NCBI RefSeq assembly: GCF_016865485.1
Contig: NZ_AP024452.1
Span: 3,618,501-3,682,500 of the forward strand
DNA: 64,000 nucleotides
Reading direction: 5' to 3'
DNA from: Luteitalea sp. TBR-22
Lineage (GTDB): Bacteria; Acidobacteriota; Vicinamibacteria; Vicinamibacterales; Vicinamibacteraceae
Shown: positions 8,746 to 17,926 of the stretch, one piece after another
How the letters are laid out: the number at the start of each line of letters is the position of its first letter
Numbering within the stretch: the stretch's first letter is position 1
The notes under the pieces: generated by a model
Told to the model about the DNA's origin: nothing
The model's input: only the letters and a program-made list of their open reading frames with translations
Database searches by the model: none
Translations under genes and position numbers: made by a program

Positions 8746-8891
8746 TCTGGCGTCAGATTTAGGACGCGACGTTGGGGGAGCAGCGACGCATTATCCACGC
8801 AAGTTGTTGATTCCATTGCGAAATGCACTTGGATCGCCACGTGCACCACGGGGAGACAGCGTGTCGCCCCTTTGTGCACACGCCCATCACC

Positions 8892-10445
8892 ATGCCTCGA
8901 TCGCTCGCCCTCGCTGCTGCTGTCCTTCTCGCCGTCGTCACGACGGTCGCTCCCACGCCGGTTCAGGCCCAGTCCGCCCCGGACCTCTTCGTCGCTGCAC
9001 AGGGGGGCTCCAACGCCTCGCGTCGCGACGTCCCGAGCCGCCGGGTACGGAAGGCCCGCCTGAACCTGAACGCCCTCAACGCCCCCACGATGCGCCTGCG
9101 GTTGTTCGACGACGTCCAGCCGGTGCTCACCCGGACGCGCATCAAGCAGCCGGCCGCCGACCAGCTCGTCTGGATCGGCCGAGGCGACAACGGCGAGCAG
9201 GCGGTCCTCGCCATGGCGCGCGGCGTCATGACGGGCACCGTCTTTGCCGACGGCCGGGTCTTCGAAATCGGCCTCGAGCCCGACGGTCAGTACAGCATCG
9301 CCGAAATCGACTCGGCCGCCTTCCCGACCGACGACCCCGAGTTCGAGGGCATCAACTTCGAGATTCTCGAGGATCCGGGCAACTTCGTGGGTGACCAGGT
9401 GGTGGCTGGCGCCGACGGGCCGGCGACGGTCGATGCCCTGACGGGCACCCCCGTGCAGGTCGACGTGATGGTCGTCTGGACGCCGAGCGCCGAACTGGCC
9501 GCCGGTGGCGCGGCGGCCATGAACAGCCTGGCCCTGGCCTCCATCGACAACGCCAACCTGGTGTACGCCAACAGCGGCGTCAACGCGGTGCTCAACCTGG
9601 TCTACGCCGGGCAGGTCAATTACACCGAGAACCCCGCCAGCATCACCACCGACCTGAGCAACCTGCGCGGCACGACCGACGCCTACCTCAACGACGTGCA
9701 CGCGAAGCGCGACGAGGTCGGCGCCGACATCGTCACCCTGTTCGGCGAGGGCTACCGGAACAACGGCTACTGCGGCTACGGCGGCATCATGACGACCGTG
9801 TCCACCTCGTACGCACCCTACGCCTTCAATGTGGTGGATCGCTCGTGCGCGGTGAGCAACCTCTCGTTCGCACACGAAGTGGGCCACAACCAGGGACTGC
9901 ACCATGACCCGGCCAACGCCTCGAGCGCGGCCTCCACGCCGTACGCGTACGGCTACCAGGATCCGGCCGGCGCCTTCCGCACGCTGCTGTCCTACGGCAG
10001 CGCGACGCGGGTGCCCTACCTGTCGAGCCCGACGCTGTACTACAACGGCCGCGTGATGGGCACGAGCACGCAGGACAACGCCCGCGCCCTGGCGGCCAAC
10101 ATCGCGACGGTCGCCGCCTTCAAGAGCGTCGGCGGCACGACGACGCCGACCACGCCGACCACGCCCACCTGCTCGTACTCGGTCTCGACGACGTCACTGT
10201 CGTTCGCCTCGACAGGCGGCTCCAAGTCGGTGACGGTAACGGCCACGGCGGGATGCAGCTGGTCGACCGCCAACGACGCGGCCGTGACCTGGGTCGGCAT
10301 GAGCACCGGCGCCGGCACCGGCAGCGGCACGGTGACGGTGACCACGCAGGCCAACAGCAGCAGCGCGCGCAGCACCACCATCACGATCGCGGGCACGCAG
10401 ATCGCCGTCAGCCAGGCGGCGCCGAAGGTGAATCGCCGGAAGTAG
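8892..10445 (+). CDS. Secreted reprolysin-like metalloprotease with C-terminal BACON domain
   Basis: A 517-residue protein from the ATG at 8892, which begins a standard signal peptide (MPRSLALAAAVLLAVVTTVA ... PVQAQ). The zinc site HEVGHNQGLHHD (His328, Glu329, His332, His338) has the extended HExxHxxGxxHD metzincin form; a methionine-turn motif is not obvious. A Thr-Pro linker (TTPTTPTTP, about residue 417) leads to a C-terminal BACON-type Ig-like domain (CSYSVSTTSLSFASTGGSKS to the end), often a carbohydrate- or surface-binding module. The N-terminal about 200 residues look like a propeptide. It should be an extracellular or surface endopeptidase. It is monocistronic. Confidence 0.88.
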   Translation: MPRSLALAAAVLLAVVTTVAPTPVQAQSAPDLFVAAQGGSNASRRDVPSRRVRKARLNLNALNAPTMRLRLFDDVQPVLTRTRIKQPAADQLVWIGRGDNGEQAVLAMARGVMTGTVFADGRVFEIGLEPDGQYSIAEIDSAAFPTDDPEFEGINFEILEDPGNFVGDQVVAGADGPATVDALTGTPVQVDVMVVWTPSAELAAGGAAAMNSLALASIDNANLVYANSGVNAVLNLVYAGQVNYTENPASITTDLSNLRGTTDAYLNDVHAKRDEVGADIVTLFGEGYRNNGYCGYGGIMTTVSTSYAPYAFNVVDRSCAVSNLSFAHEVGHNQGLHHDPANASSAASTPYAYGYQDPAGAFRTLLSYGSATRVPYLSSPTLYYNGRVMGTSTQDNARALAANIATVAAFKSVGGTTTPTTPTTPTCSYSVSTTSLSFASTGGSKSVTVTATAGCSWSTANDAAVTWVGMSTGAGTGSGTVTVTTQANSSSARSTTITIAGTQIAVSQAAPKVNRRK

Positions 10446-10538
10446 CCGCCTCAGGTCGCCGGCGCTGCGGAATGGCATGGAGAAGGCCGGGCCCCTCGGG
10501 TCCGGCCTTCGGTGCATCAGGCGGGGTCGCGCGACGAC

Positions 10539-11060
10539 TCAGCGCGCGTAGTAGTCCTTGTACATGCCGCGACGGAACAGCCAGCCGCCGAGCGGCCCGA
10601 GCCACCCGAGCACGTAGTACATGTGCTTGAGGTCGATCATCTCGATCAGGTTGCCGTCGAAGTCGCGCACGAAGAAGAACCAGTGCCCGCGCGGCGACTG
10701 CTCCGGCGTGGTGACGATCTCCACGCCCTTGGCCCGCAGGTAGTCGTGCCACTTGTGCACGTTGCGGACGTTGAAGCTGAAGTGCGTCTGCCCCACCTTG
10801 TTCCACGGGATGCGTTCCGGCGGCAGCTTCGGCTCGAAGCCGAAGATCTCGAGCGTCGCGCCACCGGGCACGCGGATCCAGCCGATCTTGCACGCCGGGG
10901 CGGGATGATCGCGCCCGACGCCGAAGAAGGCGCGTACCCGCTCGGGTGGAGCCTCCGACACGCCGACGAGCGGGCAGCCGAACACGTCCCAGTAGTACTG
11001 CACGAAGCGGTTGAAGTCGGAGACGGTGATCCCGACGTGGCTGAACGACTGGACCTTCAT
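10539..11060 (-). CDS. VOC (glyoxalase/bleomycin-resistance fold) protein
   Basis: A 173-residue protein with two beta-alpha-beta3 modules and the metal-binding pattern of VOC enzymes: His in FSHVGITVSDFNRF, Glu in ATLEIFGFE, His in THFSFNV and Glu in NLIEMIDLKHMYYV. The family covers lyases, dioxygenases and isomerases acting on small metabolites. The start overlaps the GMC oxidoreductase stop by ATGA, so it is the last gene of a three-gene operon (Gfo/Idh, GMC, VOC) and probably acts on the product of the two oxidoreductases. The C-terminal Trp/Gly/Arg-rich tail is unusual. The substrate is unknown. Confidence 0.88.
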   Translation of the reverse strand: MKVQSFSHVGITVSDFNRFVQYYWDVFGCPLVGVSEAPPERVRAFFGVGRDHPAPACKIGWIRVPGGATLEIFGFEPKLPPERIPWNKVGQTHFSFNVRNVHKWHDYLRAKGVEIVTTPEQSPRGHWFFFVRDFDGNLIEMIDLKHMYYVLGWLGPLGGWLFRRGMYKDYYAR

Positions 11061-12646
11061 GCGCTGTGCGCCGCGGCCGTGCCGGTGGCGGCGTCCTCCG
11101 GAAGGCGCAGCACCGTGCGCCGCAGGTGATCGGCCACGCGCAGGGCCTGCGCGATGATCGTGAGGCCGGGATTGACGGCCGCCGACGAGGGAAAGAACGA
11201 CCCGTCGACGACGTAGAGGTTCGGCAGGTCGTGGGCGCGGCACCAGGTGTCGAGCACCGAGCGGGCCGGGTCGCGGCCGAAGACGAGCGTCCCGCACTGG
11301 TGCGTCGTGTTCTTGGCCCGGTGCGATGCGGTCATCACCTTCCAGAAGCCGAGGCGCTTGAGCATGCGCGTCGCCTCCCGGACCAGTTGCTCGTGCGCGC
11401 CGACGTTGTTGGGCGCGTACGTGAGCCGGATCCGGCCGTCCTCGGTGAGCGTGACGCGATTGTCCTCGCTCGGCAGGTCCTCCGACATCGCCAGCCAGTC
11501 GACGCCGCGGGCCACCCATGCGTCGTAGGCCCACACCGGAATCCAGGTGACCGTGCCACGGAACCAGGTGTCGCCGACGACCTTGGCCATGATGCCGTGC
11601 GTGCGGCCCTGCGACTGGATCTGCCCGAGTGGATAGGACACGCCGGGCCCGCGCAGGTAGAAGTCGTTGATCGCCACCGTCTTCTGGAACACCGTGTCGT
11701 TCGGCCGGAACGGGTGGAACCCCTGCATCATCGTCGCCAGGTGCGCCATGTAGCGGCGGCCGACCAGGCCCGACGAATTGGCGAGTCCGCGCGGATGCCG
11801 GGCAGTCGCCGAGCGCAGGAGCAACGCCGCGGAGTTGACCGCGCCACAGGCCAGCACCAGCAGCGGCGCCTCGACGCGCAGTGTCCGGCCGTCGCGTTCG
11901 ACCTCGACGCCCGTGACCCGCGAGCCGTCGGCGGTGGTCAGCACCCGCGTCACCCGCGCCCCGGTCCACAACGTCACGCCCGCCTGCACCGCCGGTCGGA
12001 CGCAGCAGACATCCGCGTCGCCCTTGCGGTGGATCCGGCACGGGAACGAGTTGCACGTGTTGCAGAGGCGGCAGCCGCCCGGCAGGCCAGGATCGACCAG
12101 CGCCAGCGGCAGTGGCGACGGGTGCAGGCCCTGCGCACGCAAGCCCTCGATCACGCGCACCATCGCCGGCGCATGTGGCACGGGCGCGTGCGGGAACGGG
12201 CCGCGGGGTGGCTCGGTGGGATCGGCCGTGGCGTCGCCGTGCACGTGGTACAGGCGCTCGGCGCGCTCGTACCACGGCGCCAGCTCCTCGTAGGTGATGG
12301 GCCAGGCCGGCGACACGCCGTCGCGGTGCACGATCTCGCCGAAGTCCTCGCGGCGCAGCCGATACAGCACGCTGCCCCAGTACTTCGTGTTGCCGCCGAC
12401 GTTGTAGTGCGTGTAGGGCTGGAACTCCTCACCGGCGCCGTCCACCCACCGTTCCGTCGCGCGGTAACGGAGCGCCTGCCACACCGCGGCCGGGTCCCAG
12501 TTCTCCGCCTCGGACGGAACCTCGTGACCGCGCTCCAGGACGAGAATGCGCAGCCCGCGGCCGGCCAGCGCGTGGGCGAGGGTGCCGCCGCCGGCCCCCG
12601 ACCCGACGACCACCAGGTCGTAGCCCGCCACCTCCGTGGTGCTCAC
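11057..12646 (-). CDS. GMC-family FAD oxidoreductase with a four-cysteine cluster
   Basis: A 529-residue protein with a GTG start overlapping the upstream stop (GTGA). The FAD-binding GSGAGGGTLAHALAGRG is at residues 15-31, NVGGNTKYWGSVLYRLR near 82-98, and the C-terminal active-site region has THQCGTLVFG and SSAAVNPGLTIIAQALRVAD with the expected His and Asn. Between them are Cys192, 195, 198 and 203 (GCRLCNTCNSFPCRIHRKGD), resembling in position and spacing the insert that binds a 3Fe-4S cluster in FAD glucose dehydrogenases of this superfamily. No signal peptide is seen. It probably oxidises a sugar or polyol hydroxyl group. Confidence 0.9.
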   Translation of the reverse strand: MSTTEVAGYDLVVVGSGAGGGTLAHALAGRGLRILVLERGHEVPSEAENWDPAAVWQALRYRATERWVDGAGEEFQPYTHYNVGGNTKYWGSVLYRLRREDFGEIVHRDGVSPAWPITYEELAPWYERAERLYHVHGDATADPTEPPRGPFPHAPVPHAPAMVRVIEGLRAQGLHPSPLPLALVDPGLPGGCRLCNTCNSFPCRIHRKGDADVCCVRPAVQAGVTLWTGARVTRVLTTADGSRVTGVEVERDGRTLRVEAPLLVLACGAVNSAALLLRSATARHPRGLANSSGLVGRRYMAHLATMMQGFHPFRPNDTVFQKTVAINDFYLRGPGVSYPLGQIQSQGRTHGIMAKVVGDTWFRGTVTWIPVWAYDAWVARGVDWLAMSEDLPSEDNRVTLTEDGRIRLTYAPNNVGAHEQLVREATRMLKRLGFWKVMTASHRAKNTTHQCGTLVFGRDPARSVLDTWCRAHDLPNLYVVDGSFFPSSAAVNPGLTIIAQALRVADHLRRTVLRLPEDAATGTAAAHSA

Positions 12647-13632
12647 GCGACCTCCGCGGCGGTCGCCATGATCTGGTCCATCAGCTGTTGATCCTCGATT
12701 GCCCGCTCGAGACGCATCTCCGGCGGCTGTCCGGTACGGATGCCGTTGACGAAGTCGCGATACATCGCCTGATAGCCGCGGATGTCACGGAACCCTGGCA
12801 GGATGAGCCGCGGCAACTGCCCGCGCCGACGCGCCACGACGAAGCCGCCATTGCTCTCGAACGTGATCACGCCCTCGCGGCCGAACAGCTTCGACAGCCG
12901 CAGGCCGCGCAACAGCGAGGGCACCTCCCGCGAGTAGTACAGCGAACCGACGGCCCCGGAGTCGTAGGTGAACGAGACGAGCAGGCTCTTGGCTCGACGA
13001 TCGGGCCCCTCTGGCGATACCGCGGGCCGGTACCCGTGCGCCCTGACGATGGTGGGGCCGAGGCTGCCCGCCACGTGCAGCCAGTGGATGCCTTCCTCGA
13101 AGAAGGCGTCGCCGCCGGCCATCGACTCGTCGTTGCGCCAGTCGTCGGCCGCCTTGAGGCGGTGCGCGATGGTCGTGAAGTGCGCGAACACCAGGTCCCC
13201 CACCAGGCCCTCGGCGAGGAGGCGGCGGAGGGTCACGGCCAGCGGCTTGTAGTGATCGTTCTCGCCGACGATGACCACACGTCCGGCGCGATCGCGCGCC
13301 TCCAGCACGGTGAGGTAGTCGGCCATGGCGGGGAACGCCGGCTTCTCCACGAGCACGTGGCGCCCGGCGGCGAGCGCCCGGAGCGTCAGCTCGAGGTGGT
13401 AGCGCGGCGGCACGGCGATCACCACCGCGTCGACCCGCGGGTCGTCGATGGCTGCCTCGTACCCGTCCCAGGCGGCGAACCCGCCGAAATCCCGCCGGTA
13501 CGCGTCGGCCTTGGCCAGGTCGCGACTGGCGAACCCCACCGCCACCTCTGGACCGAGGCGGCGCAGGTGCCCGCAGTGGACCCGGGTGATGAATCCGCAC
13601 CCGAGGAAGGCGATGTGGACGGGACGAGGCAT
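12643..13632 (-). CDS. Gfo/Idh/MocA family NAD(P)-dependent oxidoreductase
   Basis: A 329-residue protein. Rossmann motif FLGCGFITRVHCGHL at the N-terminus, then the family signature VLVEKPAFPAMADY (about residue 98) and the C-terminal alpha/beta substrate domain with EEGIHWLHVAGSLGP. The EKP lysine and the later His are the usual catalytic pair. These enzymes oxidise or reduce ring hydroxyls of sugars and inositols, including steps through 3-keto sugars. First gene of the operon continuing into GMC and VOC genes with 4-bp overlaps. TACACT at 13667-13672 on the minus strand may be the -10, leaving a leader of about 30 nt. Confidence 0.92.
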   Translation of the reverse strand: MPRPVHIAFLGCGFITRVHCGHLRRLGPEVAVGFASRDLAKADAYRRDFGGFAAWDGYEAAIDDPRVDAVVIAVPPRYHLELTLRALAAGRHVLVEKPAFPAMADYLTVLEARDRAGRVVIVGENDHYKPLAVTLRRLLAEGLVGDLVFAHFTTIAHRLKAADDWRNDESMAGGDAFFEEGIHWLHVAGSLGPTIVRAHGYRPAVSPEGPDRRAKSLLVSFTYDSGAVGSLYYSREVPSLLRGLRLSKLFGREGVITFESNGGFVVARRRGQLPRLILPGFRDIRGYQAMYRDFVNGIRTGQPPEMRLERAIEDQQLMDQIMATAAEVA

Positions 13633-13666
13633 CAGGCGGGATGCCCCACCCGAGGGCATCCGAACG

Positions 13667-13676
13667 AGTGTACGCT
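13667..13676. promoter_or_regulatory. Overlapping divergent -10 boxes between Gfo/Idh and GH99 genes
   Basis: Minus-strand TACACT (13667-13672) and plus-strand TACGCT (13671-13676) share two bases. The plus box ends 5 nt before GTG 13682. A GGATGCC/GGCATCC inverted repeat lies close by (about 13639-13662). Confidence 0.4.
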
Positions 13677-13681
13677 GGAAC

Positions 13682-15121
13682 GTGGACGCCATGCCCCGTT
13701 CCCGACGCGCCTTCCTTGCCGGCCTGGCCGCCGCTGCGGCGGGGGCCGCGCTCCCCACGGTTCCGGGCCTCGGCCTCGCTGCGCCACGCCGGGGCCTGCT
13801 GCCCCGCACGCCCGCCGAGCGGGCCTGGCTGGGGCTGCCCGATCCGGCACGCCACTGGCGAGGCGCCTCGTCGATTGCCTCGCCGGGCACGGTCGGGCCA
13901 TCGCTCGGGGCCGGGGCGACGCAGGCCGCCCCCGGCACGTCGGCCGCGACGCTCGCGGCCCGCTTTCCCGACCTCCGTCGCCGATTCGTGTTCGAGTACT
14001 ACCCCTGGTACGACACCGAGCCCTGGTTCCACTGGAACGATGCCGACCACACGCCGCCGACCGACATCACCGCCTCGTCGATGCCGCGGCTGGGGCCGTA
14101 CGACACGTACGACCTGCGGGTGCTCGAGCAGCACGCCCGCTGGATCGCCGAGGCCGGGGCAGGCGCGATCAACCTGAGTTGGTGGGGCCGCGGCGACTAC
14201 ACCGACCTGGCCGTGCCGCGCGTGCTGGACGTGATGCGCGACCACGACATCAAGGTGGCCTTCCACATGGAGCCGTACCGCGACGACCGCTCGCGCAGCT
14301 ACGCCGACGACGTGCTGTACCTGCTGCGCGAGTACGGTGACAAGCGGGGCTGGGACGCGTTCCTGCTGCTCGACGAGGGCGGAGGCCGCGTCGCGCCCGT
14401 GTTCAAGTCCTTCCGCACCATCCTTCCCAGCCAGGTCCAGGACTGCGTCGGGCGGATTTTCCAGGTGCCCGACTACACGTCCGACGACGACTGGCGTCGG
14501 CAGACCGATGCGGTGCGCGAGGCGACGCGACGCGACTTCTCGCGGGTGTGGTTGCTGGCCGACTCGCTCGACGTGGGGCGCACCGGCGCCGCCGGCTTCG
14601 ACGGCCTCGCCGTCTACGACAACTTCGTCACGCCGCCGCAGTGGACGCGCATCGCGCAGGATGCCACCGACGTCGGCCTCGTCTTCTCCTTCAACGTGAA
14701 CCCCGGGTTCGACAGGTACCCGGATCGCCAGCCCCCGCCGCCCCCGGAGGTCGACCCCTGCTACGGCGGCCCGCTCGGGTTCGAGCCCGGTGGCGCGCAC
14801 CCCGACTGGACGGATTCGGCGGCTCGCCGGGCGGCACAGGCGAGCGCGCTCGCGCGCATCGGCGAGTCGTTCGAGGCCACCACGGGCTTGCAGGCCAGGC
14901 CGACGACCAGCAACGGCTCGCGGCGCTTCTTCCTCGCGTACGTCAACTCGTTCAACGAGTGGCACGAAGGCTCGCAGTTCGAGCCGGCAAAGGACTTCGC
15001 CGACCTGACCGCGGAGGAGCGACGCATCGGCTACCACAACCCACCCGACGGGCAGGCGCGCCTGCGACACCTGCGGGCCCTGCTCGACGAGGCTCTGACG
15101 CTGCCCGAGCGCGTCCGGTGA
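13682..15121 (+). CDS. Exported GH99-like hydrolase (endo-alpha-mannosidase family)
   Basis: Starts at GTG 13682 (leaderless geometry) or ATG 13691, 479 or 476 residues. A twin-arginine-like signal (SRRAFLAGLAAAAAGAALP) begins the protein. The catalytic domain carries GH99 landmarks: EYYPWYDTEPWFHWND, INLSWWGRGDYTD, AFHMEPYRDD and, near residue 415, NSFNEWHEGSQFEP, which contains the paired glutamates of the family. GH99 enzymes cut alpha-1,2-mannosidic or similar internal linkages by an epoxide-type mechanism. It overlaps the next gene (GTGA) and is divergent from a sugar-oxidising operon, suggesting joint use of an alpha-linked glycan. The exact substrate is unknown. Confidence 0.85.
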   Translation: MDAMPRSRRAFLAGLAAAAAGAALPTVPGLGLAAPRRGLLPRTPAERAWLGLPDPARHWRGASSIASPGTVGPSLGAGATQAAPGTSAATLAARFPDLRRRFVFEYYPWYDTEPWFHWNDADHTPPTDITASSMPRLGPYDTYDLRVLEQHARWIAEAGAGAINLSWWGRGDYTDLAVPRVLDVMRDHDIKVAFHMEPYRDDRSRSYADDVLYLLREYGDKRGWDAFLLLDEGGGRVAPVFKSFRTILPSQVQDCVGRIFQVPDYTSDDDWRRQTDAVREATRRDFSRVWLLADSLDVGRTGAAGFDGLAVYDNFVTPPQWTRIAQDATDVGLVFSFNVNPGFDRYPDRQPPPPPEVDPCYGGPLGFEPGGAHPDWTDSAARRAAQASALARIGESFEATTGLQARPTTSNGSRRFFLAYVNSFNEWHEGSQFEPAKDFADLTAEERRIGYHNPPDGQARLRHLRALLDEALTLPERVR

Positions 15122-15630
15122 GCAGCGACATGCTCACCGATCCCCATCTGCAACGCGCGCTTGACCTGATCGACTCGGCCACCCGCGACTTCACGTCGTC
15201 GGACTGGGAAACCGGCGCCCCTGGACGATGGTCACGCGCCGCGATCCTGGAGCACCTGGGCAAGGCCTACGCGGCCACGGCGTACATCCTTGACAAGTGC
15301 GTGCACGACGGCGCGCCGAAGGGCACGGCGCCGGCATGGCGGCAGCGTCTCTTCACGTGGCTGATCGTCGACGTGGGCTGGTTCCCCACCGGGGCCAGGG
15401 CGCCGGCCATGACGTTGCCAGAGGGGATGGCGGGCGCCGAGGCCCTCGCGTATGCGCGCCGCAGCCTGCAGGCCCTCGACGAGGCAGCGGTGCGCTGCGC
15501 GGCGGCGTTCGCCCCTGCCGCACGCGTCGCCACTCACCCCATCCTCGGCGGCTTCACCGTCGACCAGTGGCGTCGGTTCCACTGGAGCCACACGCGTCAC
15601 CACGTGCGCCAGATCGCGCGCCGGCGCTGA
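15118..15630 (+). CDS. DUF1569 / DinB-superfamily protein
   Basis: A 170-residue protein starting at GTG 15118 in a GTGA overlap with the GH99 stop (ATG 15130 is an alternative). Four-helix-bundle character, with WSRAAILEHLGKAYAATAYI near the N-terminus and the metal-site-like FHWSHTRHHVRQI at the C-terminus, as in DUF1569 members of the DinB/YfiT group. Many relatives are thiol- or metal-dependent transferases, but no reaction is established here. Co-translation with a glycosidase is the only clue to role. Confidence 0.8.
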   Translation: MSSDMLTDPHLQRALDLIDSATRDFTSSDWETGAPGRWSRAAILEHLGKAYAATAYILDKCVHDGAPKGTAPAWRQRLFTWLIVDVGWFPTGARAPAMTLPEGMAGAEALAYARRSLQALDEAAVRCAAAFAPAARVATHPILGGFTVDQWRRFHWSHTRHHVRQIARRR

Positions 15631-15646
15631 CGCGGCGCGGGGGGAC

Positions 15647-15667
15647 GGGCACCGGGCACCGGGCAAA
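15647..15667 (+). repeat. Heptamer array, 3 units of GGGCACC type
   Basis: GGGCACC, GGGCACC, GGGCAAA in tandem, preceded by a G-run; another single GGGCACC lies at 15687-15693. With the preceding G-run the stretch fits a four-tract G-quadruplex motif. Confidence 0.7.
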
Positions 15668-15707
15668 CCGCGCACCGGCGGGCAGCGGGCACCGGTAGGC
15701 ATCGTGC

Positions 15708-15742
15708 GTTCGGCGTTCGGCGTTCGGCGTTCGACGTTCGGC
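15708..15742 (+). repeat. Heptamer array, 5 units of GTTCGGC
   Basis: Five contiguous 7-nt units (fourth is GTTCGAC). The array ends exactly where the TATGAT box of the next gene begins, so it occupies the -35 position of that promoter. Confidence 0.9.
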
Positions 15743-15748
15743 TATGAT
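15743..15748 (+). promoter_or_regulatory. -10 box TATGAT for the SDR gene
   Basis: TATGAT ends 7 nt before GTG 15756, consistent with a leaderless transcript. The -35 region is replaced by the GTTCGGC array. Confidence 0.5.
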
Positions 15749-15755
15749 GCGCGCC

Positions 15756-16538
15756 GTGACTACCCTCGACCTGTTCCGCCTCGACGGCCGTCGTGCGTTG
15801 GTGTCGGGCGCCAGTCGCGGCCTGGGCCGCGAGATGGCGCTCGCGCTCGCCGATGCCGGCGCCGACGTCGTCATCACCGGCCGCACGCAGGAGACCCTCG
15901 ATCGCACCGCTGCCGACATCCGGGCGCGCGGCAGGCAGGCCTGGACACACCTGGTGGACATGGCCGACCCGGCGGCGTGCGAGGCGGCCTGCCTCGTCAT
16001 CCGCGACACGCTGGGGCCGATCGACATCCTCATCAACAACGTCGGCAACCGGGTGACGGCGGGCGCCATCCAGGACGAGCCGCTGTCGACGTGGCGCACC
16101 TCGATCGACCTCAACCTGCACAGCGTGGTCGTGCCGACCCGAATCTTCGGCGGGGCGATGATCGCCGACGGGCGACCGGGGCGCATCATCAACATCGGGT
16201 CGATCAGTGGCCTCATCGCCAACCGCGGCATCGGCGGCCGTGACTACGAGACGTTGAAGGCGGCGGTGGTGCACTTCACCCGCTGCGCGGCCGTCGACTG
16301 GGCGCCGCACGGCATCACCGTGAACGCGATCTGCCCGGGGCTGTTCATGACCGACGTCAATCGCGAGTGGAACGAGAAGCGCCCCGACGTCATCGAGGCC
16401 TTCGTCAAGCACATCCCGATGGGACGCCCCGGCAATCCGCCCGAGATCGGTCCGCTCGCCGTCTTCCTCGCCAGCCCCGCCTCGTCGTACGTCACCGGCG
16501 CCGCCATCGTGATGGACGGCGGCTACACGGCGTGGTGA
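15756..16538 (+). CDS. Short-chain dehydrogenase/reductase (gluconate 5-dehydrogenase-like)
   Basis: A 260-residue protein. GTG 15756 is preferred because the in-frame ATGs at 15744 and 15747 fall within the probable -10 box. Classical SDR features: SGASRGLG cofactor loop (about residue 17), NNVGN, catalytic Ser in NIGSISG and YETLK (YxxxK), then the carboxy-terminal VTGAAIVMDGGYTAW. The opening LFRLDGRRALVSGASRG is typical of gluconate 5-dehydrogenase/3-oxoacyl reductase-type SDRs acting on polyols and keto acids. Its position after the GH99 unit suggests sugar metabolism, though it has its own promoter. Confidence 0.9.
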   Translation: MTTLDLFRLDGRRALVSGASRGLGREMALALADAGADVVITGRTQETLDRTAADIRARGRQAWTHLVDMADPAACEAACLVIRDTLGPIDILINNVGNRVTAGAIQDEPLSTWRTSIDLNLHSVVVPTRIFGGAMIADGRPGRIINIGSISGLIANRGIGGRDYETLKAAVVHFTRCAAVDWAPHGITVNAICPGLFMTDVNREWNEKRPDVIEAFVKHIPMGRPGNPPEIGPLAVFLASPASSYVTGAAIVMDGGYTAW

Positions 16539-16575: not shown

Positions 16576-17265
16576 TCAACTCGCCCGCTGCGCCTGCTCC
16601 ATCGTCGCCAGGTACGCGTCGGCCTCGCCGATCGCCTTGGCCATGTCGGCCACCAGCGCATCGACGTCCCTGGACACCGCGACCAGTTCCTTCGAGAGCG
16701 CGCCGAGCGCACGCGCATTGAGGTTGTGCTTGAGGAACAGGACGCGATCGCGCAGCGGCTTGAGTACCGGGTCGATCTTCTTCTCGACGCGCTCGAGCGA
16801 GGCGATCAGGGCCTCGGTGCGTCGGCGGGTCTCGCGGAGCTCGCGCTCGCTCTCGGCGCGCAGGGCACGGTCCGAGTACTTCCCCAATTCGTCCTGCCAC
16901 TCCTTGAACAGGTCCTTCGACACGCCGCGCACGCCTTCGATGCGGTCGCGCACGTCTCTGGCCCGCCCCTCGCTGCGTTCGAGTTCCTTGTTCAGGCGAT
17001 CGTAGGTCGCTTCGAGATCGCCGCCCTCGACGTCGACGATCTCCTTGAGCCGCTCCATGGCCGTCTTGAAGTCCTGCTGGGCCCGGGCCTGCGACTCGCG
17101 CGCTTCCTTGACGCGTTTGACCAGGATGTCGCGCTTCTCGAAGCCGACCTTCTTCATCGCCTTGTAATACAGGCGATCGCATCCCGCCAGTGGCAGCACT
17201 GCCAGGCAGAGCGCGGCGGCCAGCAGCACGGGCCCGCCCATTCGCTTCGCTTCCCACACGGCCAT
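16576..17265 (-). CDS. DUF2959 lipoprotein, long coiled coil
   Basis: A 229-residue protein. Start at ATG 17265 because TACACT (17272-17277) ends 6 nt before it; ATG 17241 is an alternative with GGAAG upstream. Signal with lipobox LAGC (about residue 29), then DRLYYKAMKKVGFEKRDILV, the conserved opening of DUF2959, followed by about 180 residues of heptad-rich helix. It should be an outer-membrane or periplasmic lipoprotein with a coiled coil, of unknown function. Convergent with the SDR and 22 bp downstream of the DedA gene end. Confidence 0.85.
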   Translation of the reverse strand: MAVWEAKRMGGPVLLAAALCLAVLPLAGCDRLYYKAMKKVGFEKRDILVKRVKEARESQARAQQDFKTAMERLKEIVDVEGGDLEATYDRLNKELERSEGRARDVRDRIEGVRGVSKDLFKEWQDELGKYSDRALRAESERELRETRRRTEALIASLERVEKKIDPVLKPLRDRVLFLKHNLNARALGALSKELVAVSRDVDALVADMAKAIGEADAYLATMEQAQRAS

Positions 17266-17271
17266 GCGGCC

Positions 17272-17277
17272 AGTGTA
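17272..17277 (-). promoter_or_regulatory. -10 box TACACT, leaderless start for DUF2959 gene
   Basis: On the minus strand TACACT, 6 nt, then ATG at 17265. Confidence 0.4.
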
Positions 17278-17287
17278 CCGGAGCCCT

Positions 17288-17926
17288 TCAGGGGGTCGTC
17301 GCGTCATGGCTGGCTGGAGTCGCGGCCCGGCCCTGTCGATGCGTCGCCACGCGCCAGAGGTACCAGCCGACCATCGAGGCGACGATGGCCGTGGAGGCGG
17401 GCCCGAGCACGTCGTTGACGCGCGTGAACCGTGCTTGCAGGCCGTACCCGGCGAGCGCCAGCGCGCCGGTCCATGCGGAGGTTCCCACGGCCGAGTAGAG
17501 GAAGAAGCGCCAGGGCGGCACGCGCGCCAGGCCGGCGGGCAACGAGATCAACGTGCGGACCGTGGGGACCAGCCGCCCGATCATGAGCGCGATCACCCCG
17601 TGGCGCACCAGCCAGTCTCTGGCGCGATCGATGTCCCCGGGCGCCAGGGTCAACCAGCGGCCGTGCCGCTCGACGAGCTGCCGGAGCCGACGCTCGCCCA
17701 CATGCCACCCGAGCCAGTACCAGGCGGCTTGCCCGACGAGCGAGCCCGCGGTGCCCGCCACGACCACGCCAGGCAGCGACAGGTTCCCTCGAGTCGCCAG
17801 CGCGCCGGCCAGCGGCATGATCAGCTCCGACGGGATCGGCGGAAAGAGATTCTCCAGGCACATGAGGAGCGCGATGCCCGGATAGCCGAGCGAGTTGATG
17901 AGGTCCAGAATCCAGGAACCGCCCAT
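17288..17926 (-). CDS. DedA/SNARE-associated family membrane protein
   Basis: A 212-residue integral membrane protein starting MGGSWILDLINSLGYPGIAL. It has the DedA motif ENLFPPIPSELIMPLAGALA, the second conserved segment GSLVGQAAWYWLGWHVGE, the Arg-containing IGRLVPTVRTLISLPAGLA and several hydrophobic helices. DedA proteins are involved in phospholipid and undecaprenyl-phosphate flipping and in envelope homeostasis. It is divergent from the cystathionine beta-synthase-like gene and is followed by the DUF2959 lipoprotein. Confidence 0.92.
   Translation of the reverse strand: MGGSWILDLINSLGYPGIALLMCLENLFPPIPSELIMPLAGALATRGNLSLPGVVVAGTAGSLVGQAAWYWLGWHVGERRLRQLVERHGRWLTLAPGDIDRARDWLVRHGVIALMIGRLVPTVRTLISLPAGLARVPPWRFFLYSAVGTSAWTGALALAGYGLQARFTRVNDVLGPASTAIVASMVGWYLWRVATHRQGRAATPASHDATTP

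Follow-up and report, generated by a model that had tools for sequence, protein, structure and literature searches.

Among members of the vicinal-oxygen-chelate (VOC) family, methylmalonyl-CoA epimerase, glyoxalase I and FosB share the same kind of His/Glu metal site, and the 2-epi-5-epi-valiolone epimerases ValD and CetB would be a precedent for epimerisation of a keto-cyclitol next to its carbonyl. In the GMC family of FAD-dependent oxidoreductases, the cysteine-rich loop of the Burkholderia glucose dehydrogenase (BcGDH) carries a 3Fe-4S cluster, held by Cys212, Cys218 and Cys222, that passes electrons from FAD (PMC6719666). In C-glycoside and glycoside 3-oxidase pathways, a GMC enzyme oxidises the sugar, and the product is taken over by a second enzyme whose gene adjoins that of the first (PMC10646112). 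Here we describe a locus that encodes a GMC and a VOC protein together with a Gfo/Idh/MocA oxidoreductase (GFO) in Luteitalea sp. TBR-22, a cultured member of the class Vicinamibacteria, Acidobacteriota (PMC8852301). The locus lies in a stretch of 64,000 nucleotides (hereafter the window; positions 3,618,501 to 3,682,500 of contig NZ_AP024452.1), the genome being a single contig of 6,468,984 bases. It has two divergent arms, GFO, GMC and VOC (the triad) on the minus strand, and a GH99-like hydrolase with a DUF1569/DinB-like protein on the plus strand (Table 1). Gene calls and Pfam, in which all five names score above the curated cut-offs, confirm the genes and layout reported in an earlier note on this DNA, and the 4-bp overlap that it described at every within-arm junction is exact at 3/3 junctions. 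That note read the five genes as one unit. We find that the natural unit is GFO-GMC-VOC, not the five-gene module, which replaces the five-gene reading by a stronger and simpler one, a three-gene operon of known enzyme kinds. For this operon we tentatively propose, at slightly less than an even chance, an intracellular oxidise-isomerise-reduce route whose substrate would be a free sugar, a sugar acid or a cyclitol.

The minus arm is a co-inherited unit. We searched 193 genomes of the class at E-values of at most 1e-120 for GMC, 1e-40 for VOC, 1e-90 for GFO and 1e-20 for GH99. GMC matches occurred in 94 genomes; 12 matches of 46-52% identity were set aside as paralogues, and the orthologue set, of at least 58% identity, covers 87 genomes, next to 93 with VOC, 90 with GFO and 40 with GH99. 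VOC was found in every one of the 87 GMC-orthologue genomes, always on the same strand, at a distance from GMC of up to 400 bp in 79, up to 6 kb in 6 and further in 2. GFO lies within 400 bp of GMC in 72 of the 87, within 6 kb in 2, far away on the same contig in 1 and on another contig in 9. All three genes occur in 84 of the 193 genomes, that is, in nearly half of the sample of an abundant, little-characterised soil class, and are contiguous in 65; 97 genomes have any of the three. In a sample of 396 genomes of the phylum, VOC was found in 34, of which 31 belong to the class and 3 to one other family; those 3 keep the order GFO-GMC-VOC, with a GMC-VOC gap of 1.5 kb in one. The protein distances of GFO, GMC and VOC correlate across 28 taxa (Spearman 0.39-0.68), which says little beyond shared history because no control gene was included.

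A scan of public genomes returned 52 loci with a GMC relative, several of them from draft metagenome genomes that may be mislabelled. GMC is at least 64% identical over a long stretch in 37 loci, and GFO, GMC and VOC follow in order in 32 of these; the contig ends before GFO in four (L020, L038, L042 and L052), and no VOC was seen in the stretch of L036. Thirteen further loci have a distant GMC (42-55%) without a triad, with two weak GFO-like matches and, in L053, a weak VOC match, and 2 of the 52 are short partial matches. The 4-bp overlap recurs at 11 of 35 GFO-GMC and 13 of 38 GMC-VOC junctions, with starts chosen by script. In a few loci GMC and VOC are separated by other genes that by eye resemble peptidases or amidases, the gene calls there being rough ones made with a GC-codon heuristic.

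Conservation in relatives, which the earlier note had named as a check on its five-gene reading, holds for GFO-GMC-VOC and fails for the GH99/DUF1569 arm in both genus and class. Class-wide, GH99 and GMC occur together in 15 genomes where 18 would be expected (Fisher p=0.29, without regard to the kinship of the genomes); they adjoin in only three: the window genome and its congeners G001 and G002. Among the five genomes of Luteitalea, the complete five-gene set is found in the window genome and in G001. G002 is without DUF1569; G003, on a 4-kb contig, has the triad and DUF1569 but only a 61-residue fragment of GH99; and G004 has the triad alone of the five, GH99 not being found. DUF1569 is thus present in 3/5. 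Neither of the two genomes from the family's other genus gave a triad orthologue or a GH99 or DUF1569 match. The G003 piece lies in an open frame (L098 482-742) between DUF1569 and GFO; either the gene has decayed or been deleted, or this draft genome is misassembled there. At the GH99 position G004 has an amidohydrolase-like gene (L097 6093-7805; best model 218.9 bits, cut-off 340) with a twin-arginine-like start, on the same strand as the triad and ending just before GFO. Beside the plus arm stands an SDR oxidoreductase gene (Table 1) that is 81-86% identical in G001, G002 and G004; since it occupies the same place in all three, its position is kept where GH99 has been lost.

The GH99 protein itself is a member of its family by its Pfam score (cut-off 33 bits), and the NEWHEG motif is found in the window protein and in 29/29 homologues examined. 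Its leader, RSRRAFLAG, is of the twin-arginine type, and an RRx(F/L)L-type motif occurs in 25/29 homologues, which makes twin-arginine export likely for this family. Both features would suit a unit in which an exported GH99 alpha-glycanase frees a sugar that the divergent triad then oxidises, all five genes being regulated together, as would the conservation of all genes and their layout in G001 and of four of the five in G002. GH99 is nevertheless unlinked to GMC, it is a fragment in G003 and is replaced by the amidohydrolase-like gene in G004, and no promoter was recognised, all of which makes such a unit very improbable. We rejected it for the loss or fragmentation of GH99 in congeners and its adjoining GMC in three genomes only. 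GH99 and DUF1569 are local neighbours in part of the genus, outside the conserved unit; elsewhere GH99 homologues have varied neighbours, as judged from open frames only. Exported GH99 may or may not feed the triad in Luteitalea, and in our survey nothing was found linking its product to the triad.

Co-regulation of the two arms had been argued from interlocking -10 boxes. The text is present: the 10-mer AGTGTACGCT at 13667-13676 occurs once in the window, with 0.04 occurrences expected by chance, and reads TACACT in one direction and TACGCT in the other. A recognisable promoter pair is not: a sigma-70 scan of 10300-15900 gave 0 sites (0.3 expected in shuffles), leading us to reject a recognisable sigma-70 divergent promoter, and no -35 was recognised for the triad's candidate -10. 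Three congeners have exactly the same 10-mer, and in G003 its triad side differs (Table 1). Because G004 keeps it without GH99, its conservation is explained by the triad side alone; it follows the triad, and the overlap of the boxes is therefore no evidence of co-regulation.

As for the GMC protein, which we aligned with 47 of 66 sequences (48 with the window's), both Pfam domains place it in the family (cut-offs of 23 bits for GMC_oxred_N and 24.6 for GMC_oxred_C). Among solved structures the closest matches of its profile, extending over almost the whole length, are FAD-glucose dehydrogenase at 235 bits and fructose dehydrogenase at 208 bits; it scores at most 80 bits with pyranose oxidases and 54-55 bits with chains 7dve and 7qf8, which we take to be C-glycoside and glycoside 3-oxidases. 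The catalytic-type pair H449 and N492 is kept, each in 47/48 sequences. In the motif C192-x2-C195-x2-C198-x4-C203 all four cysteines are present in 23/23 triad-type sequences, while they occur in 20, 21, 14 and 20, respectively, of the 25 non-triad-type ones. Compared with the BcGDH ligands (C212-x5-C218-x3-C222), C192-x5-C198-x4-C203 is located in the same loop and is one residue longer, and the GMC protein would probably contain an Fe-S cluster. The likeness to BcGDH and fructose dehydrogenase lies in the profile match, the H/N pair and the cysteine-rich loop. The differences are that the position of the FAD-linking His105 of BcGDH is a tyrosine in the window GMC in the profile alignment, that no export signal was seen in it by eye, and that its partners are Gfo/Idh and VOC enzymes; a scan of the eight other window gene products showed no hitchhiker gamma subunit or multiheme cytochrome c. 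The triad enzymes would be cytoplasmic.

These scores also bear on two related possibilities, that VOC is a lyase or dioxygenase cleaving a keto sugar, or that the triad performs a 3-keto-glycoside elimination of the C-glycoside or levoglucosan type. GFO is weakly like the levoglucosan dehydrogenase model (49 bits, cut-off 650) and scores 18.5 bits with the model of the glycoside 3-dehydrogenase BT_2158 (cut-off 750), and ThuA is annotated near GMC in Priestia and recognised by eye in bacilli. The GMC protein, with its far higher score for glucose dehydrogenase than for pyranose oxidases or 7dve and 7qf8, points elsewhere, and no deglycosidase-type partner was found among the scanned window genes or in a small sample of 20 neighbours elsewhere; in particular, no CarB/CarC-type deglycosidase turned up in the genes scanned, no search aimed at CarB/CarC having been made. 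We consider these possibilities unlikely. A C-glycoside/3-keto system was rejected as our principal interpretation on account of NCBIfam scores far below cut-off and the low similarity of GMC, by which the triad also differs from the C-glycoside 3-oxidase pathways.

The VOC protein was aligned with 32 of 33 sequences and that of L053, and its residues were counted in a separate set of 36 sequences. H8, E71 and E140 are present in 36/36 and H93 in 35/36; we take these four to be metal ligands from knowledge of the family, and VOC likely keeps its metal site. Its C-terminal tail (residues 151-171) is conserved as well. The best matches of its profile among solved structures are methylmalonyl-CoA epimerase, glyoxalase I and FosB (25-41 bits), from which it differs in the conserved tail and in its gene partners; the NCBIfam models of glyoxalase I and methylmalonyl-CoA epimerase stay far below cut-off. 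Could VOC then be a glyoxalase-like housekeeper that clears a reactive dicarbonyl produced by both oxidoreductases? Its residue set is of the glyoxalase I type, and it scores 33.8 bits with glyox_I and 35.9 bits with YaeR in NCBIfam. These values are far below the cut-offs (120 and 140), its co-occurrence of 87/87 with one GMC exceeds what a general scavenger would require, and the genome has 22 Glyoxalase matches, triad VOC included, so we regard a housekeeping role as distinctly unlikely.

For GFO (aligned with 28 of 33 sequences, 29 with the window's), the lysine of the EKP motif, K97, and the catalytic histidine, H183, are present in 29/29, which together with the Pfam domain places it in Gfo/Idh/MocA. 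Glucose-fructose oxidoreductase chains account for four of the six matches that its profile gives at E-values of 1e-20 or lower. The earlier description of a sugar-type oxidoreductase pair with a metal VOC enzyme therefore agrees with the profile matches of GMC and GFO and with the VOC residues. GMC relatives are found in 90 plasmid records, from which we picked 21 regions among the matches listed, 3 of them without annotation; the GMCs of these regions are distant, 42-49% identical to the window GMC. Sugar-type genes, such as sugar ABC transporters, glycosidases, gluconolactonase and sugar kinases, lie near GMC in 16 of the 18 annotated regions, by a loose count reaching up to 8-9 kb with no control for plasmids in general, and none was seen in the Trichormus and Agrobacterium CFBP7129 regions. 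A consistent link of GMC and VOC to a non-sugar pathway, which the earlier note had said would speak against its reading, is hence not what these plasmids show. Of the same 18 regions, 7 have a VOC gene no more than 8 kb from the distant GMC, and 4 have respiratory oxidase genes. An RbsD/FucU mutarotase gene lies directly 3' of GMC in three Chloroflexota-type loci (one by Pfam, two by clustering, with gene calls from the same rough heuristic). Together with the relatives of GMC and GFO and the ROK gene described below, these neighbours support a sugar, sugar acid or cyclitol as the putative substrate. In five proteobacterial plasmid loci (L093, L137, L138, L140 and L163) GMC recurs with DoxX, mostly also with cupin, SMP-30/gluconolactonase and VOC genes and sometimes with cytochrome oxidase or PQQ genes.

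In the oxidise-isomerise-reduce route that we propose for the triad, GMC would turn one carbinol group of its substrate into a ketone by dehydrogenation, its electrons passing from FAD, probably through the iron-sulfur cluster, to a respiratory acceptor. This keto compound would be bound by the metal-dependent VOC enzyme, which would move the proton next to the carbonyl by way of a metal-held enediolate, in effect an epimerisation or isomerisation; a keto intermediate followed by VOC-catalysed rearrangement or cleavage had been suggested by the earlier note too. GFO would use NAD(P) to reduce, or first oxidise, the partner position. The product may in some genomes be phosphorylated by an adjacently encoded ROK fructokinase-like enzyme: a ROK kinase gene lies 3' of VOC in 9 of the 31 loci with at least 1 kb available downstream (about 2 kb away in L028), and the one member scanned is nearest to fructokinase PRK09557 (412.8 bits, cut-off 443). 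We only infer the order of the steps, epimerisation by VOC, metal binding, the Fe-S cluster, the acceptor and the cytoplasmic location. That the triad is an undescribed cassette, pairing a cytoplasmic Fe-S GMC dehydrogenase without cytochrome subunit with a VOC epimerase dedicated to a keto sugar or keto-cyclitol, is a more specific proposition and one that we doubt; it would place a VOC epimerase in carbohydrate catabolism. We did not find a GFO-GMC-VOC triad described, by title, in the open-licence literature searched. The triad is a testable unit in which an Fe-S GMC dehydrogenase may cooperate with a VOC enzyme on sugars, and the identity of its substrate would show a sugar or cyclitol food common to many of these Acidobacteria.

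Several observations weigh against the proposed route. GFO is separate from GMC in 12 of the 87 GMC-orthologue genomes and absent in 3, many of the genomes being drafts, and six genomes of the class have VOC and six have GFO without a GMC orthologue. In the profile alignment the GMC cysteine columns are one residue off the BcGDH ligands. The VOC proteins encoded close to distant GMCs resemble the triad VOC weakly or to no measurable degree, and one VOC chemistry is therefore not indicated: those of L049, L088 and L053 score 38-40 bits with the triad VOC profile, where unrelated VOCs of the window genome reach at most 32; among the seven plasmid VOC genes the score is 39 bits for one and 16 for another, and five give no match at E 10; and tblastn of VOC gave no plasmid match at 1e-8. 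By best single domain, L049, L088 and L053 score 24-38 bits against 30 for the unrelated VOCs, so that this is a weak test of whether the VOCs near GMCs of other phyla belong to a single clade with the triad VOC. Moreover, no NCBIfam model reaches its cut-off for any of the five proteins, and as this includes every triad member, no substrate can be named. A ROK match was not found in the available stretches of 22 of the 31 loci.

Table 1. Features of the divergent locus and genes beside it (window coordinates)
Feature	Position	Strand	Description
VOC, vicinal-oxygen-chelate protein	10539-11060	-	173 aa; Pfam Glyoxalase 59.7 bits
GMC, FAD oxidoreductase	11057-12646	-	529 aa; GTG start; Pfam GMC_oxred_C/N 71.8/60.8 bits
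GFO, Gfo/Idh/MocA oxidoreductase	12643-13632	-	329 aa; first triad gene; Pfam GFO_IDH_MocA 71.8 bits
Candidate -10 of triad, TACACT	13667-13672	-	Kept in G001, G002 and G004; TATACT in G003
GH99-like hydrolase	13691-15121	+	476 aa; Pfam Glyco_hydro_99 85.8 bits, residues 115-218 only
DUF1569/DinB-like protein	15118-15630	+	170 aa; GTG start; Pfam DUF1569 33.2 bits
Reprolysin-type metallopeptidase	8823-10445	+	PF13583, 60.8 bits
SDR oxidoreductase	15744-16538	+	
DUF2959 protein	16576-17307	-	245 bits

Of the genes beside the locus, that of the reprolysin-type metallopeptidase adjoins the VOC end of the triad; two homologues lie in the G001 stretch and the type is also present in G002, with none seen in the G004 stretch. 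A DUF2959 protein is encoded further along on the minus strand. The distant GMCs of bacilli, Ensifer and Paracoccus (L040, L043, L055, L086, L134 and L166) have varying hisD-like, thiamine-pyrophosphate-enzyme, ThuA and aspA neighbours, some recognised by eye, and this group possibly belongs to another uncharacterised pathway.

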